From Candidatus Altimarinota bacterium (GTDB taxonomy: Bacteria; Patescibacteriota; Gracilibacteria; BD1-5; UBA6164), in NCBI GenBank assembly GCA_028696815.1, contig JAQVGG010000010.1, positions 1 to 47,368 on the forward strand: a stretch of DNA of 47,368 nt. The letters run 5' to 3'. Of the stretch, positions 12,236 through 40,557 are shown in pieces. The notes under the pieces were generated by a model. It ran no database searches. It saw only the letters and a program-made list of their open reading frames with translations, and had not been told where the DNA came from. Numbering within the stretch: position 1 is the stretch's first letter; every line of letters starts with the position of its first letter. The position numbers and the translations under genes are program-made.

Positions 12236-12325
12236 CCCTTCCCCCTGCAGGTACTGCTTCGCTTCAACTTCAAAATAGTCGTGTCACCACTCCTTTTTTC
12301 ACTTGTCCCTTTGGAAAAGGGAGAG
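12236..12325. repeat. Dispersed repeat, long form (copy in intergenic DNA)
   Basis: This C/T-rich stretch directly after the protease stop is closely similar to a segment inside mutL. CTTCGCTTCAACTTCAA at 12257 matches 38505, followed by ATAGTCGTG, a variable triplet, CACTCCTT, TTTCACTTGTCCC and AAGGGAGAG. The last part (TCCCTTTGGAAAAGGGA) is a small palindrome. It belongs to the family of C/G-rich repeats that also occur in fmt, prmC and mutL. Confidence 0.8.
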
Positions 12326-12389: not shown

Positions 12390-12464
12390 GAAAAACGACT
12401 CCCTTGAACTAAGGTTCTTGTGGATGTCACAACAATCCGAAGAAAAGCCTAAGGAGGCAAACGA

Positions 12465-12713
12465 ATGAAACGGACCGCAATCCTGGCCGCACAGGCCAAA
12501 CAGTGTATGCACGCCAAGATCATCGCCGGCGCCTTCGACCATGCCATCGGCTACTCCGGAACCACCGCCCATGACACCGGGCAGGGCCTGGGTGGCTCCT
12601 CCAACGGCGCGCACACCGGCTCCGACGACGTCTGAGGCCGGTCGAAGGTAGTACCCAGCTTCTTAACGCTGGTAAGTAGTTGTTCTTCGAGAAGTACCGA
12701 AGGAGCCCCGTAA
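12465..12713 (+). CDS. Putative small ORF in the GC-rich unit
   Basis: ATG at 12465 lies 7 bases after a perfect AAGGAGG. Under the standard code the ORF ends at TGA 12633-12635 (56 aa); under code 25 it continues to the TAA in the terminator loop (82 aa). The first 56 codons use almost only C or G in the third position, as in a high-GC genome and unlike every neighbour. The peptide begins MKRTAILAAQAKQCMHAKII and turns Gly/Ser/Thr/His-rich. I recognise no family. It is either a recently acquired gene whose TGA was meant as a stop, a peptide in a dual-function RNA, or chance within a structured RNA. The strong SD and third-position bias favour real coding in its source genome. Confidence 0.4.
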
Positions 12714-12735
12714 GGGGCTCCTTTTCTTTTTCCAA
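12701..12735 (+). terminator. Strong intrinsic terminator of the GC-rich unit
   Basis: A perfect 10-bp stem AAGGAGCCCC / GGGGCTCCTT with a GTAA loop is followed by TTCTTTTT. It is the most GC-rich terminator in the window. Confidence 0.9.
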
Positions 12736-12820: not shown

Positions 12821-12909
12821 TCTTATGAATTATAAATTTACTCAAAAATTGATGGTTTGTTTTTAGTTTTTCAGTTGTTTTCGGAGGAATTTTTGTATAT
12901 TTCAGAGAA

Positions 12910-12955
12910 AAATTCCCCTATAATCCCCTTTTATAAAGGGGATGAGCTGCAAAGT
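12910..12955. repeat. Left inverted repeat of the DUF559 cassette
   Basis: AAAAATTCCCCTATAATCCC continuing into CTTTTATAAAGGGGATGAG. Its reverse complement occurs at about 13391-13430 on the other side of the DUF559 gene, with a match of about 39 bases. Within the arm, CCCCTTTTATAAAGGGG is itself a palindrome. Confidence 0.85.
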
Positions 12956-12974
12956 AAATAATAATTATAGTACT

Positions 12975-13406
12975 ATGGAAAGAGAATTTTGGGATGAGGA
13001 TTATTTGAAAAGCAGATGACTTATCTTTTGATGAAAATATTTACCATATAATCCTAATCTCCAAGAGAGAGCTAAGGAAATGAGAAAAAATTTAACTTTA
13101 GCAGAAAGAAGACTATGGGTAAGTTTTTTGCAAAAGTATAATAAAAGATGAGAAAATAAGATTACAATATTAAAACAAAAAGTTATTGATAATTATATAG
13201 TTGATTTTTATATACCAAACTATAAACTAGTAATTGAAGTTGACTGAGAAAGTCATGTAAATAGAGAATGATATGACGAAGAAAGAACAAATATATTGAA
13301 TTGATATTGATTACAAGAGATTAGGTTCTCAAATTATGACATTTTTAATAATTTTGAAACTGTTTGTAATAAACTAAAACAAATACTGTCCTCATCCCCT
13401 TTATAA
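12975..13406 (+). CDS. DUF559 endonuclease-like protein
   Basis: 143 aa. It shows the DUF559 layout: YLPYNPNLQERAKEMRKNLT, then LAERRLW, then the Vsr-like endonuclease core with VIDNYIVDFYIPNYKLVIEV, DGESH and YDEERTNIL, ending in EIRFSNYDIF. The core resembles very-short-patch-repair and other PD-(D/E)XK nucleases; Asp and Glu in VDFY and VIEVDG are the likely metal ligands. The gene lies between inverted copies of a C/G-rich palindromic repeat, and its last codons (SSSPL-stop) are encoded by the right repeat. Glycines are partly TGA, so it is adapted to code 25. The surrounding repeat also occurs inside other genes of the window. Whether the protein moves or processes the repeat is inference. 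Confidence 0.88.
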
Positions 13407-13495
13407 AAGGGGATTATAGGGGAATTTTTACTTATATTCCTATTTTAGGGGGAATTATTACTTATTTTTCCTATTTAGGGGAACTTATAAATTTA
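13387..13495. repeat. Right inverted repeat and degenerate tandem units
   Basis: 13391-13430 is the inverted counterpart of 12910-12955 and contains the DUF559 stop codon. It is followed by two partial repeats (CCTATTTTAGGGGGAATT and CCTATTTAGGGGAAC) spaced about 29 bases apart, which look like decayed extra copies of the same end. glyA begins 18 bases later. Confidence 0.75.
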
Positions 13496-19363: not shown

Positions 19364-20359
19364 ATGAAAATAGCATTTTTTTGAACAGGAGAGTTTTCTA
19401 AAAGTATACTTGAAGGAATATTATCTTATGATGATATAGATGTTGCCTTGATTGTGTCTCAACCTGATAAACCAGTATGAAGAAAAAAAGAAATACTCTC
19501 AACTCCTGTAAAAGCTCTGGCTTTAGAGAAAAACATAGAAGTTTTACAGCCTGAAAAATTAAAGCCCTCACCCCAACCCTTCCCGCAAAAAGCGGGACAA
19601 GAACAAATCAGTGTTTTCTATAAAAAGTTAAGAGATTTAAATCTAGATTTCATAGTAGTAGTTGCTTATGGGAAAATAGTGCCAAAGGAAGTATTAGAAG
19701 CGCCAAAACACTGATGCATAAACCTGCACGGTTCTATACTTCCAGCTTATAGATGAGCAAGTCCTATACAAGAATCTATAAAAGCTTGAGATACAAAAAC
19801 AGGTCTTACCGTTATGTATATGTCTGAGTGAATGGATGAGTGAGATATCTTGTCTATATGAGAAGTTGAAATAGATATCACGGATAAAACACCTGATATT
19901 TTTAATAAATCTGTAGATATTTGACCAAGCTTACTTGTTAAAACTCTAAAATGAGTTTTAGATTGAACTGTAAAAGCAATTCCTCAAGATGACTCTCAAG
20001 CAACATATTGTTCTAAAATAGAAAAACAAGATTGAGAAATAAACTTTGAAACACAAACAGCAAAAGAGATTTATGACAGATTTAGGGCATACTATCCTTG
20101 GCCTGGTATTTATACTTATTATAAAGGTAAAAAATTTGCTATAGAAGATTGTGTCTTTGATAAAACAGATTTAAGTTGAGATGAAGAATTAAAAGCTGGA
20201 GATGTAGTAGAAATAGAAGAAGACCATAAAAAACAAATATGAGTGATTTGTAAGTTATGAATACTTATTTTAAAACAAGTAAAACTTGAATGAAAGAAAA
20301 CTATGGATATACTCTCGTTTGTTAATTGAAACAAGGAGTTTTTAGATTATAAATTTTAG
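19364..20359 (+). CDS. fmt: Methionyl-tRNA formyltransferase with an in-frame repeat insert
   Basis: 331 aa. Fmt adds a formyl group to Met-tRNAi. Seen are IAFFGTGEFSKSIL at the N-terminus, VVVAYGKIVP, the catalytic NLHGSILPAYRGASPIQESI stretch, and KTGLTVMYMSEGMDEGDIL, then a C-terminal OB-fold with YDRFRAYYPWPGIYTYYKG. Residues about 67-82 (KPSPQPFPQKAGQEQ, 19561-19608) are encoded by a C-rich palindromic repeat and have no counterpart in ordinary Fmt. They lie in a surface loop ahead of the catalytic core, so activity is probably kept. This is one of five such inserts in the window. Confidence 0.93.
19561..19608. repeat. In-frame palindromic repeat inside fmt
   Basis: CCCTCACCCCAACCCTTCCC is followed by the small palindrome CCCGCAAAAAGCGGG. 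The base composition differs sharply from the surrounding AT-rich codons. The insert keeps the reading frame. Confidence 0.75.
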
Positions 20360-21366: not shown

Positions 21367-22281
21367 ATGAATAAGCAAGACTTAATAAATTATTGAAAAG
21401 ACCTTTGACTTAAGCAATCAGATATAGAAAAAATAATACAAAAAGAAGCTGATTTAACTATTAGTCAGCTTTTTTTGCTGGAAGAAATTGATGATAAATA
21501 TATAGAAAACATAAAATCATCTTTTGATAGATTAAAAAAGTGAGAACCACTTGAGTATATCCTAAACAAAGCGGAGTTTTACTGACTAGATTTTTATGTT
21601 GATAATAGAGTTTTAATACCAAGAAATGATACAGAGGTTATGGTTAAGGAAGTGATTAATGAACTAAATAATACCCCTATCTCTACCCCTTTTCCCCTCC
21701 AGGAGAAAGGGAATAGTTATATGACTTTGATTGACGTATGAACGTGAAGTTGAGCTATCCCAATATCTGTTTTGAAAAATACAGATAAAATAAATAAATG
21801 TTATGCAATAGAATTGTCACAAGAAGCTTTAGAAGTAGCAAAAATCAATGTAGAAATACATTGATTAGAAAACAAAATAGAACTTATAAATTGAGATTTA
21901 TTGACACCTTTCCTATCACCTACCACCTACAACCTGTTATCTACAATTATTATCACAGCAAACTTGCCTTACATAAGAACCTGAGATTATAAAAGTATGG
22001 ATGACAGTGTAGTATTTTATGAGCCAGATTTAGCTCTATACTGATGAGAAAAAACAGGTTTTGAGTTGTACGAAAAATTGATAGAACAATGTTTAGAATT
22101 AAAAGAAAAATTATATTCTCCCACTGCTAGGGGGGAGCTAGAGGGGGGGCTGACTCTGTTCATCGAGATATGATATGATCAATATGAATATTCAAAAAAC
22201 TACTTAAAAAATCTTTGATTAAACTTTGAATACTTCAAAGATAATAGTTGAATATATAGATGTGTAAAAATAGAGTTTTAG
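21367..22281 (+). CDS. prmC: Release factor glutamine methyltransferase with two in-frame repeat inserts
   Basis: 304 aa. PrmC methylates the Gln of the GGQ motif in peptide release factors, using SAM. Visible are the N-terminal helical domain, RLKKGEPLEYILNKAEFYGL, VLIPRNDTEVMV, motif I LIDVGTGSGAIPISVL, and ITANLPYI, in which the usual NPPY is NLPY as in many PrmC proteins. Residues about 102-117 (TPISTPFPLQEKGNS) and 251-265 (SPTARGELEGGLT) come from C/G-rich palindromic repeats. The second insert replaces the short loop before FIEIGYDQ. In an organism where UGA is sense, RF2 should be missing or changed, so PrmC probably serves RF1 alone; this is inference. Confidence 0.92.
21671..21715. 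repeat. In-frame palindromic repeat 1 inside prmC
   Basis: CCCCTATCTCTACCCCTTTT followed by CCCCTCCAGGAGAAAGGG. The sequence resembles the C-rich arm and short palindrome seen in fmt and mutL. It adds about 15 residues in-frame. Confidence 0.72.
22117..22160. repeat. In-frame palindromic repeat 2 inside prmC
   Basis: TTCTCCCACTGCTAGGGGGG followed by AGCTAGAGGGGGGGCTGACT. It has runs of six or seven G in a genome that otherwise avoids G. It is in-frame and read as SPTARGELEGGLT. Confidence 0.72.
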
Positions 22282-22352: not shown

Positions 22353-22604
22353 ATGAAAACTACAACATCAACAAATCTCAAACAATCTCTTTGAGAAATG
22401 CTTAAAAATATCAACAAAGAACCTGTAAAAATAACTAAAAGAAGCAGAGATCACGCCGTTTTAATTTGATATAGTGAATATTCTCATCTGAAAGAACTAG
22501 AGGAATATGAAGACATACTTTTTTGACTGGCGGCAAAAGAAGTTATGAAATGATGAATGGCTTCAAAAGAGGAAACACAGTCTTTACTTGATAGTATAAA
22601 ATAA
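22353..22604 (+). CDS. Type II antitoxin, Phd/YefM family
   Basis: 83 aa. The N-terminal half (TTTSTNLKQSLGEMLKNINK, then EPVKITKRSRDHAVLIGYSE) is the Phd/YefM DNA-binding fold. The C-terminal half (residues 48-83) is the toxin-binding tail. It would bind its own promoter and neutralise the toxin encoded one base downstream. The gene has its own promoter (22292-22319). Four glycines are TGA, so a code-25-adapted copy is present. Confidence 0.86.
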
Positions 22605-22605
22605 G

Positions 22606-22872
22606 ATGGAGATTATTTTGTCAAAACAAGCATTAAAAAAACTTTCTATTATAAGTAAGTCAGACCAAGAGCATGCCAGTTTGATTAAAAAGAAATTGAT
22701 TCTCATATCTAAAAAAGAAGTTGAATTAGTCCAGTTAAAATGATATAAGTGAATATACAAAGAGAGAGTTTGAAAATACAGGATTATATTTAATTATACG
22801 AAATCTCATGTAAATATAATTATTTTAGAGAGAAGGGACTTGGTTTATAATTTAGTAAGTCATCTATTATAA
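22606..22872 (+). CDS. Type II toxin, RelE/ParE family
   Basis: 88 aa. The fold markers are an N-terminal strand and helices (MEIILSKQALKKL), the basic segment QLKGYKGIYKERVGKYRIIF, and the C-terminal strand plus NIIILERRDLVYN. GKYRIIF followed by a late Arg and Tyr is typical of RelE-type ribosome-dependent mRNA endonucleases, though ParE-type gyrase inhibitors share the fold. The start ATG is one base after the antitoxin stop. An intrinsic terminator begins at the stop codon, so the pair forms a complete two-gene unit. Confidence 0.85.
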
Positions 22873-30968: not shown

Positions 30969-31080
30969 TGTCATTCTGAACTTGTTTCAGAACCATTAAA
31001 TGTAAATACAATATTTAGAAAAAATATTCTTTGATTATAAGGAGGATAAATTATGATTCTGAAACAAGTTCAGAATGACA
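30969..31080. repeat. 24-bp inverted repeat spanning the efp start
   Basis: Arms 30969-30992 (TGTCATTCTGAACTTGTTTC plus AGAA) and 31057-31080 are perfect reverse complements, 64 bases apart. The right arm lies within the reading frame of efp directly after its first ATG. It looks like a MITE or a similar mobile repeat. Confidence 0.85.
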
Positions 31081-38134: not shown

Positions 38135-40090
38135 ATGTCTAAAATTATAAAACTAGATAAAACTTTAGCAAATCAGATAGCTGCTTGAGAAGTGGTAGAA
38201 AGACCAGTATCAGTAGTAAAAGAGTTGGTTGAAAACTCAATTGATGCTGGAGCAACAAGTATAAAAGTAGAGATAAAGTGAGGCTGAATAGATGAAATAA
38301 TAATAACAGATAATTGAACAGGTATAGAAAAAGAGGATTTATCTTTGGCTATAGAAAAATACTCAACTTCAAAAATCAAATCTTTGCAGGATTTATACAA
38401 TGTGATGACTTTTGGGTTTAGATGAGAAGCTTTAGCCTCTATATCTTCTGTTTCAAAGTTTCAAATAATTTCTAAAAAGAGCCACAGCCCTCACTCAGTC
38501 TCTACTTCGCTTCAACTTCAAGATAGTCGTGCAAGCACTCCTTCTTTCACTTGTCCCAAAGGGAGAGAAGAAGCTACAATAATAGATTCTTGAGGTTATA
38601 GTTTAGAAGTAGTTGATTGAGAAAAAACAGATATAGTTTCATATCCTTGTGAAACTTGAACAAAGATAATAGTAAAAAACTTATTTTATAATACTCCAGC
38701 TAGGCTCAATTATTTAAAAAAGCAGAGAACTGAGTATGCTCACATCCTTGAATTTTTAAACGCAATGAGTTTGGTATATCCTCAAATAGGTTTTGAGTTT
38801 GTAAGTGATGAAAAATCAGTTTTTAAATATCCTGAAAAACAAGACTTAAAAACTCGTATTTATAATATATATTGAGAAGAGTTTTCTGATAATTTACTAG
38901 AAGTAAATGTAGAACTTGTTTGAGTAAAGATTTCTGGATATATATCAGATCCAAAAGTATCTTTTCCAAATAAAAATAGACAAAGTCTTTTCGTAAATAA
39001 AAGGGTTATCAAATCTCCCCTAATTTTTAAGTCAATATCTGATGCATATAACAGATTTATACCTCATGGAAGTTTTCCTGCTTATGTTTTAAACATAGAT
39101 GTTGACCCAACACAAGTTGATGTAAATGTCCATCCTAGAAAACTTGAGGTTAGGTTTGCGAATGAAAGCCAAATATTTAGATGAGTTTACCATGCTGTTG
39201 AGGATAAATTAAATAGCGTGAGTTTAGTGAGCTCATCTCAACAAATAAACCCCTTATCCCAGCCTTTCCCCTCAAGGGAGAAAGGGGTAGAACAATGTAG
39301 TAATGTAGCTATTCTTTCTCCCTTGGGGGGAAAGTTAGATAGGGGGACTTACTACACAGGTTCTTGAACTAAATTTAAATCATATAGTCCATATAAAGAT
39401 ACAAGTGCAAATCCTGCACAGGCTAATATATCTGATGCAATAAACTTTAGTAAAGGTATACTTGATAATAGTAAGCCAGGAGTTGATTTAGAAAGGAATG
39501 AGAGAGATCTTCACGATACTCCTCTTTGAAGGATTATATGACAAGCACATAACTCTTATATCATAGTTGAAACTAAAGATTGAATAAAATTTTTAGATCA
39601 ACACGCTTTGGCTGAAAGAATAATTTATGAAAAATTAATTAACTCTAAAACTTGATTTAAAACTCAGGGGCTTCTGATTTGAGAATCGCTAAATCTTTCA
39701 CCAAAAGAGTTAAATATACTTGAGGAAAATAAAAATATCTTTGAGGAGATGTGATTTGATTTTGAGATAATGTGATGAGCCATAATTATGATAAATGGAA
39801 TACCAGATTTTGTAAAAAAAGAAAATATAAAAAATATATTTTTATGAGTTTTAGATGATATATGAGAACATGAGTTTACAAAGTCAAAAACTCTGCAAGA
39901 AATTAAAAATAAAATATACGCTTATACTGCTTGTAGATCAGCTATAAAATTTGGAAATAAATTAAATCTGTTTGAGATGAACAAACTGCTTTGCGATAGT
40001 GTTTGAGATTATAGTTCAACGTGTCCACACGGAAGACCAGTAGTTTTTGATATTAATTTAGAAGAGTTGAAAAATAGATATGAAAGATAA
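38135..40090 (+). CDS. mutL: DNA mismatch repair protein MutL with two in-frame repeat inserts
   Basis: 651 aa. The N-terminal GHKL ATPase is complete: [51 protein letters not shown] and [13 protein letters not shown], then [11 protein letters not shown] and [13 protein letters not shown]. The C-terminal dimerisation domain begins near residue 465 ([20 protein letters not shown]) and holds [25 protein letters not shown] and CPHGRPVVF, as in MutL proteins with an endonuclease-type C-terminus, though the DQHA motif is used and should be checked. Residues about 116-146 (38481-38572) and 371-405 (39246-39350) come from C/G-rich repeats. The first lies between conserved strands of the ATPase domain, the second in the natural linker. 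Confidence 0.95.
38481..38572. repeat. In-frame long-form repeat inside mutL
   Basis: Closely similar to the intergenic copy at 12236-12325, sharing CTTCGCTTCAACTTCAA, ATAGTCGTG, CACTCCTT, TTTCACTTGTCCC and AAGGGAGAG in the same order and spacing. It is read in-frame as about 30 residues ([20 protein letters not shown] and on). Confidence 0.85.
39246..39350. repeat. In-frame palindromic repeat pair inside mutL
   Basis: CCCCTTATCCCAGCCTTTCC is followed by CCTCAAGGGAGAAAGGGG; about 60 bases on, TTTCTCCCTTGGGGGGAAAG and AGGGGG occur. The two parts are roughly inverted relative to each other and are translated in-frame in the linker of MutL. Confidence 0.78.
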
Positions 40091-40094
40091 AAAA

Positions 40095-40131
40095 TTCCCC
40101 CCTCCTTACTAAGGAGGGGGTTAGGGGGTAG
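40095..40131. repeat. Palindromic repeat copy between mutL and the T4SS-like operon
   Basis: CCCCCTCCTT / AAGGAGGGGG with a 3-base loop, followed by TTAGGGGGTAG. It lies exactly between two converging genes and could act as a terminator in both directions, in addition to being a repeat copy. Confidence 0.8.
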
Positions 40132-40557
40132 TTATTTATACACCCAAGGAGCTATTGCGTTTAGTATAACTCAGCTAAGTAGTAGTATAACAAGTCACAT
40201 AAGTGTTTTTCAGATTCTTTCTTTTGCCTTGTCTTTCATTCCTTGATCTATACCGCTCATAGAGTACATTATACCATTTATAACTATAAACAATACAATT
40301 GCTAATCAAGCAATATAGGTAAACCATTTAATTATGGCTCACATCATTTTCATAACAGGAGTGAATCATTTTGCTACACAACAATATGTTTTGTTACCGT
40401 CTTCTATACAATTAGCTCAAGGAACTGATTCTGAAACTGAAACAGGTATTTCTCATTCAAAACACATATCTCATACTCATGCAGCAAAAGAATAGCTAGT
40501 TAAAAAAAAGCTAAATGGTATTAAAAGTATTAATAATATTTTTGATATTTTTTTCAT
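40132..40557 (-). CDS. TrbC/VirB2-like pilin-type membrane protein
   Basis: 141 aa. An N-terminal signal-like segment (ILLILLIPFSFFLTSYSFAA) is followed by a Cys-containing extracytoplasmic part (DMCFEG, ANCIEDGNKTYCCV), then two membrane spans (about 78-100 and 115-135) separated by a short loop with SGIDQGMKDKAKERIGKTLM. This two-span plan with a charged loop is typical of TrbC/VirB2-like pilins of type IV secretion systems, which are widespread in CPR genomes. It is the last gene of the minus-strand operon starting at 45420. The family call rests on topology and loop pattern, not on a strict motif. Confidence 0.65.

Follow-up and report, generated by a model that had tools for sequence, protein, structure and literature searches.

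Short palindromic repeats fill bacterial genomes and also sit in proteins, and for many of their families the mover is unknown. Rickettsia palindromic elements (RPE) are inserted in frame in many proteins, and we know of no mover for them. The arm repeats described here presumably resemble RPE as well as the rhizobial RIME repeats. With RPE they share in-frame palindromes in protein genes, and they differ from them by a nuclease-bearing form.

In the REPtrons of the REP/RAYT (TnpA-REP) system, inverted hairpin repeats enclose an enzyme gene, many solo hairpins, single and paired, are found in the same genome, and copies are located inside repair and replication genes (PMC3733652, PMC3116915, PMC8266576). 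Di Nocera and colleagues described GTAG REPs with RAYT enzymes and REPs within replication and repair genes, and CGTC REPs that "apparently lack a dedicated transposase" (PMC3733652). The elements analyzed here are similar in all of these features of REPtrons. However, their enzyme is the EDxHD/Vsr-type nuclease DUF559, whereas RAYT is a HUH/Y1 tyrosine transposase, and the enzyme gene itself enters essential genes in frame. In addition, the 102 oriented elements have a tail of the CCCTCACCCYAA type without a GTAG consensus, while the REP tag is GTAG. With these CGTC-tagged REPs they have in common the dispersed hairpins, but the stem and the tag sequence are different.

DUF559 is a widespread protein family of unknown function, which is sometimes read as mismatch repair. 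Caulobacter VsrA, NGO0050 (PDB 3hrl) and E. coli YcjD belong to the same family; they are annotated or studied as repair-type nucleases, and their accessible text gives no link to flanking repeats. In the open literature, which omits most subscription papers, no link between DUF559/COG2852 and inverted or palindromic repeats was found, so that a prior description is possible. The EDxHD homing endonuclease I-Bth0305I (PDB 3r3p; PMC3943268) is similar in fold, sequence and catalytic residue pattern. In contrast to enzymes of this type, DUF559 is compact, lacks extra DNA-binding regions and is bordered by palindromic arms; neither an intron nor an intein was found in its surroundings.

The window, i.e., the whole analyzed stretch of 47,368 nucleotides from a Candidatus Altimarinota bacterium, contains a DUF559 gene enclosed by two inverted arms (Table 1). 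The arms were found to be 39 nt in length, 100% complementary and 444 nt apart, which confirms the 39-base inverted repeats of the initial annotation. The left copy had been placed slightly off (12910-12955 instead of 12908-12946), whereas its inverted relation to the right copy was correct. In the list of the longest pairs of the window, no other inverted repeat of this length is perfect, and the probability of a chance origin is negligible. The genome uses code 25 (TGA = Gly), and the DUF559 ORF contains 8 in-frame TGA codons. A possible start codon (ATG) is located at 12942 inside the left arm, followed by a second ATG at position ~12975. Under code 25, the right arm indeed provides the final codons and the stop (TAA) of the gene, as had been proposed.

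Table 1. Coordinates of the DUF559 element and of repeats elsewhere in the window.
Feature	Position	Strand	Basis
Left arm AAAAATTCCCCTATAATCCCCTTTTATAAAGGGGATGAG, outer tail and hairpin	12908..12946	+	Perfect inverted repeat with 13391-13429
DUF559 endonuclease gene, 154 aa	12942..13406	+	ORF under code 25; Pfam PF04480, E=4e-25; AlphaFold (AF2) model
Right arm, inverted copy of the left arm	13391..13429	-	Inverted-repeat search
Two tail-like units TTCCTATTTTAGGGGGAATT / TTCCTATTTAGGGGAACTT beside the right arm	13434..13490	.	Direct sequence reading
Solo single-arm repeat in frame inside fmt (KPSPQPFPQKAGQEQ)	19562..19606	+	CCCTCACCCCAACCCTTCCCGC..GCGGGA; fmt by Pfam
Probable decayed solo repeat in prmC (STPFPLQEKGNS)	21682..21717	+	Sequence reading
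Probable decayed solo repeat in prmC (SPTARGELEGG)	22117..22149	+	Sequence reading
In-frame insert of mutL, ~33 aa; different repeat type, common to 12254-12309	38480..38593	+	Same-family MutL alignment; direct repeat D4
Solo inverted pair (tail-hairpin..hairpin-tail), in frame, in variable mutL linker	39248..39346	+	MutL alignment; repeat reading
Hairpin and tail repeat after mutL (CCCCCCTCCTTACTAAGGAGGGGGTTAGGGGGTAG)	40097..40134	+	Repeat reading

Only DUF559 was found between the arms, and not the DDE transposase by which a DDE insertion sequence or MITE is recognized. The Rfam search yielded no matches, and PADLOC yielded only weak matches to restriction-type enzymes. The element is flanked by an S41 peptidase gene on one side and by glyA on the other. 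In same-family relatives, the region in front of glyA contains neither DUF559 nor the arms; in one of these relatives the upstream peptidase gene is also present by sequence reading, and the intergenic stretch is partly alignable. Since this region is empty in the relatives, the window copy is an insertion for which the empty state was observed.

Related palindromes had been claimed for fmt, prmC, mutL and the region after mutL. They could be found in fmt, in mutL and after mutL, while the copies in prmC are weaker. The mutL insert at 38480-38593 is missing from those relatives that aligned. A second dispersed repeat type was observed at 12254-12309 and 38502-38557 (copies 89% identical), the latter copy forming this mutL insert, with stretches matching it on contigs C17 and C40 of the same genome. 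The exact 39-mer of the window arm is present at two places only in the 1.19 Mb assembly, both of them flanking the window DUF559 gene, so that the supposed spreading of the repeat in the genome does not hold for this exact sequence. It does hold for sister subtypes, since 34 exact hairpins were found in the 1.19 Mb; these dispersed copies share the hairpin and tail design but not the exact sequence of the window arm. Four DUF559 genes were identified in this genome, each directly enclosed by an inverted repeat that differs from those of the other three. The arm types are CCTCACCCC-AA-CCCTCTCC (contig C26), that of the window, ACCTCTCTCC (C25) and ATCTCCCTTT (C26). About 11 of the 15 solo repeats that were read in this genome lie inside long ORFs in one common reading frame (..SPHPNPLPEGEG..). 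Solo repeats were located in uvrC-, tex- and thiI-like genes (gene names by sequence reading).

For the comparison of DUF559 loci, the 200 bases upstream of each DUF559 match were compared with the 200 bases downstream, and the best inverted repeat formed by the two flanks was scored, using random positions at the same loci as controls. In Patescibacteria, a phylum name derived from the genetic code and the named relatives, a score of at least 24 was reached in 90% of 91 loci compared to 2.9% of 910 controls (median 37 vs. 17). Very similar values were obtained for 80 loci chosen by sequence motif, with 90% vs. 5.5% of controls at this score and 82% vs. 1% at a score of 30. By record title, these originate from Deltaproteobacteria, other Proteobacteria, Nitrospirae, Dehalococcoidia, Planctomycetes, Gastranaerophilales, Spirochaetota, KSB1, Omnitrophota, Stahlbacteria and others. 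In Pseudomonadota, the phylum of a Sphingomonas genome, 29 loci were chosen with the Pfam model alone, and 76% of them scored at least 26 (controls 4%). The question raised by the initial annotation, whether DUF559 genes are regularly flanked by the repeat, was thus answered positively for 76-90% of the loci in three samples compared to 3-5.5% of the controls, the samples comprising the better-scoring DUF559 loci of the groups named above. None of 10 Vsr loci had an inverted-repeat score above 24. DUF559 framed by arms is the rule across many phyla.

The arm design is roughly CCCTCACCCYAACCCTCTCC-loop-GGAGAGGG, i.e., a hairpin with a tail. It consists of a C-rich tail (CCCTCACCC), a short YAA/YAG-like link and the hairpin CCCTCTCC-loop-GGAGAGGG. 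Left and right arms match within an element and differ between elements. The outer length of 131 elements was found to be 460 bp (median). The tail faces the gene in 76 elements and points away from it in 26, which counts against the explanation favored below, since a single mechanism would have to explain both orientations. As MAFFT misplaced the variable loop in the arm alignment, a sequence pattern was used in place of a covariance model.

With this hairpin pattern (CCCTYYCC-N2..8-GGRRAGGG), whose reversed control was near zero in Patescibacteria, the distribution of solo hairpins was analyzed. In Patescibacteria, the pattern was found in 37 out of 43 genomes with a strong DUF559 match and in 16 out of 181 genomes without (odds ratio 64, p=2e-23), and among 150 Pseudomonadota genomes at least 5 copies were present in 24 of 31 DUF559 genomes and in 13 of the 119 others (p=1e-12), where both p-values overstate the strength of the evidence because related genomes are not independent. 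The total copy numbers were 467 (DUF559 genomes) vs. 48 (others) in Patescibacteria and 1,627 vs. 355 in Pseudomonadota, with up to 350 copies per genome. Strong DUF559 matches were spread over 23 families, and in 17 of these the hairpin is present in a DUF559 genome. The hairpin-bearing genomes without a strong match count against the explanation favored below; three of them contain many hairpins (67, 74 and 114 copies), and in the one with 67 copies, a weak DUF559 match falls in a Vsr gene. Such genomes may carry relics, be incompletely assembled or have another mover. The initial annotation had held that the link would be due to chance if DUF559 genes of relatives lacked the repeat and the repeat occurred in genomes without DUF559; it survived this comparison, as the arms were regular and the hairpins concentrated with DUF559.

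Empty, solo and filled states of the same site were compared across relatives and could be found for recG and pglX in addition to the region in front of glyA. In recG of the same genome, DUF559 lies in frame between its arms in a loop between the Walker A helix and the APTE motif. This loop is empty (29-37 aa) in six recG sequences from related genera, contains a solo inverted pair (93 aa) in one and an in-frame arm-DUF559-arm insert in two others, one of which has arms that are nearly perfect out to the host codons. The identity of the recG inserts (46-61%) is lower than that of the host (72-79%), and repeated insertion or fast divergence is therefore possible. In the solo recG loop, tandem short units (PHPNQQEQ / PHPSQQEQ) precede the pair, which by their sequence look like partial tails duplicated in frame. 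At the pglX site, DUF559 is present in the Synechocystis B12 plasmid, while Pseudanabaena has only the inverted pair, in frame. No target-site duplication was detected around the 131 elements (mean match 2.74 vs. 2.69 in shuffles). Together with the arm association and the solo copies, these allelic states support the proposed candidate mobile cassette well.

Two further candidates for empty sites were rejected. For E. coli ycjD, strains without the gene carry an efflux operon in its place, and no clean empty site was found. In O157:H7 and other strains, this operon replaces the DUF559 gene next to sapF; the sapF-fabI interval is thus a site of alternative gene content. In E. coli 2017.01.04CC, ycjD is truncated by a deletion of ~106 bp between ycjD and fabI. 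The ycjD gene also counts against the explanation favored below: it has no inverted pair by the scoring used (score 20) and was found at one fixed place in thousands of genomes, so that some members of the DUF559 family may be settled. In the Sinorhizobium pair, half of the DUF559 gene is deleted (S. meliloti Ak57 pSymB), the deletion ending at the right hairpin.

Insertion in frame is not restricted to recG. At 15 of the examined loci, the host coding sequence extends for a long stretch on either side of DUF559 without a change of frame. In an IleRS-like protein of Rickettsiales, the Pfam domain tRNA-synt_1 (42-820) surrounds DUF559 (311-415). By Pfam, DUF559 is also nested in a ValRS-like protein, Mfd, PriA (two phyla), EarP, Sua5, riboflavin synthase, a radical-SAM Elp3-like protein and an IspE-like kinase; the insertions in ileS, valS, mfd, priA, ribE and ispE resemble that in recG. 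In ispE of Gastranaerophilales, one frame of 577 aa contains two DUF559 copies, one before and one inside ispE. An intein appears unlikely, as Pfam found no splicing domain in 10 fusions; the host frame is open straight through, and free-standing DUF559 copies exist.

The profile of 39 DUF559 domains matches PDB 3hrl (E 2.8e-37) and 3r3p (E 5.9e-4). The AlphaFold model of the window protein (pLDDT 82) was most similar to 3hrl (Z 13.8, rmsd 1.9, 93 aligned residues), followed by 3r3p (Z 12.4, rmsd 2.2, 94 aligned) and Vsr (1cw0; Z 10.2, rmsd 2.6, 99 aligned). A Vsr/EDxHD homing-endonuclease fold is therefore predicted, while the Vsr family model PF03852 gave no Pfam match for the window protein. 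E55, D88, D101 and D112 are invariant and H105 is nearly invariant. This is consistent with the residues that a comparison with E. coli Vsr had suggested for Caulobacter VsrA (PMC12907096). Given this fold and the conserved catalytic residues, the protein is predicted to cut or nick DNA. Within groups, the covariation of arm type with protein similarity was weak (Mantel 19/500 and 48/500 permutations), and specific recognition of the arms by the nuclease is therefore no more than presumed.

We consider it moderately probable that the window feature is a copy of a palindromic element which is mobile, has non-autonomous solo derivatives and is built like REP/RAYT around an unrelated nuclease. 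This reading is based on the association of arms and gene, the solo copies, the empty, solo and filled alleles, the in-frame insertions and the predicted fold. The likeness to REP/RAYT is seen in the enzyme gene between inverted hairpins, the enzyme-less hairpins that occur largely in enzyme-bearing genomes, the alleles with and without insert and the missing target duplication. The element would consist of an arm (hairpin and C-rich tail), the DUF559 nuclease and an inverted arm. We infer that the nuclease acts on the arms, and most likely it would nick or cut either its own hairpin arms, as single-stranded or cruciform DNA, or target sites. By recognizing hairpin and tail, it could start single-strand transfer or break-repair copying, which are indistinguishable here, and the element would be copied in via break repair or as single-stranded DNA, the target duplication being absent. 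Solo arms and inverted arm pairs would then be non-autonomous relatives moved in trans. Copies in genes would persist only in tolerant loops and only if the complete insert can be read in frame, whereby the nuclease would become an extra domain of RecG, IleRS, PriA and others.

The main rival is homing into older repeats, in which the palindromes would be an independent family and DUF559 a homing endonuclease, which would cut solo pairs and place a copy of its gene between the arms through break repair. The nearest characterized structural relative, I-Bth0305I, is a homing endonuclease, solo pairs lie at the very sites that are filled elsewhere, and the absence of target duplications also fits. 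However, homing would leave the solo repeats in need of a separate mover, although they are concentrated in DUF559 genomes, and a deletion of the nuclease from within the element explains filled and solo states equally well; we regard homing as rather unlikely. If another enzyme, e.g., a tyrosine or DDE transposase, moved the arms, DUF559 would be cargo kept for its own benefit. The genomes with many hairpins and no strong DUF559 match and the weak covariation of protein and arm are in line with such a cargo role, but it is clearly improbable, because the arms enclose the same gene family in many phyla and the hairpin is rare in genomes without DUF559. The initial annotation had left open whether the nuclease drives the movement of the repeat or hitchhikes on it; the driving role is favored here. 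DDE transposition of the element was rejected, as target duplications are absent.

Hairpins can terminate transcription, and the arms could thus be terminators or mRNA stabilizers around a non-mobile, very-short-patch-type repair nuclease, as proposed for Caulobacter VsrA. This protein has a DUF559 domain and causes an SOS response upon loss of a cytosine methylase (PMC12907096). Arms in frame inside essential genes, alleles that are empty, solo or filled, and Vsr genes without such arms all argue against this explanation, which we judge very improbable; terminator or regulatory hairpins were therefore rejected as the primary explanation.

A nuclease with such repeats on both sides in nearly all cases is a concrete candidate for their mover. 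DUF559 probably drives a family of mobile DNA hairpins that has received little attention, and gains a likely role different from mismatch repair. The wider reading, which we put forward tentatively and with less confidence than the reading of the window element, is a previously unrecognized class of bacterial mobile elements in many phyla, in which a Vsr/EDxHD-type nuclease mobilizes hairpin and tail repeats, also in frame into essential genes without a splicing device. If true, this nuclease would supply the missing mover for the abundant CCCTC-type palindromes. The fusions also illustrate that an essential enzyme can accommodate a whole nuclease domain in frame.

Further observations were made in the window. 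Just upstream of the DUF559 element, a GC-rich patch (12401-12720) has a GC content of 50-66% compared to ~30% around it. It contains an ORF of 56 codons (MKRTAILAAQAKQCMHAK..), gave no Pfam or plasmid match and is possibly foreign or an assembly artifact. A 28-nt inverted pair (TGTCATTCTGAACTTGTTTCAGAA..) is located at 30969-31080, at the start of an efp-like ORF. It resembles the CGTC/TGTC-tagged REP class (PMC3733652), and two palindrome classes may coexist in this genome. Adjoining prmC, a gene pair resembling a RelB/RelE-type toxin-antitoxin system was found at 22353-22872.
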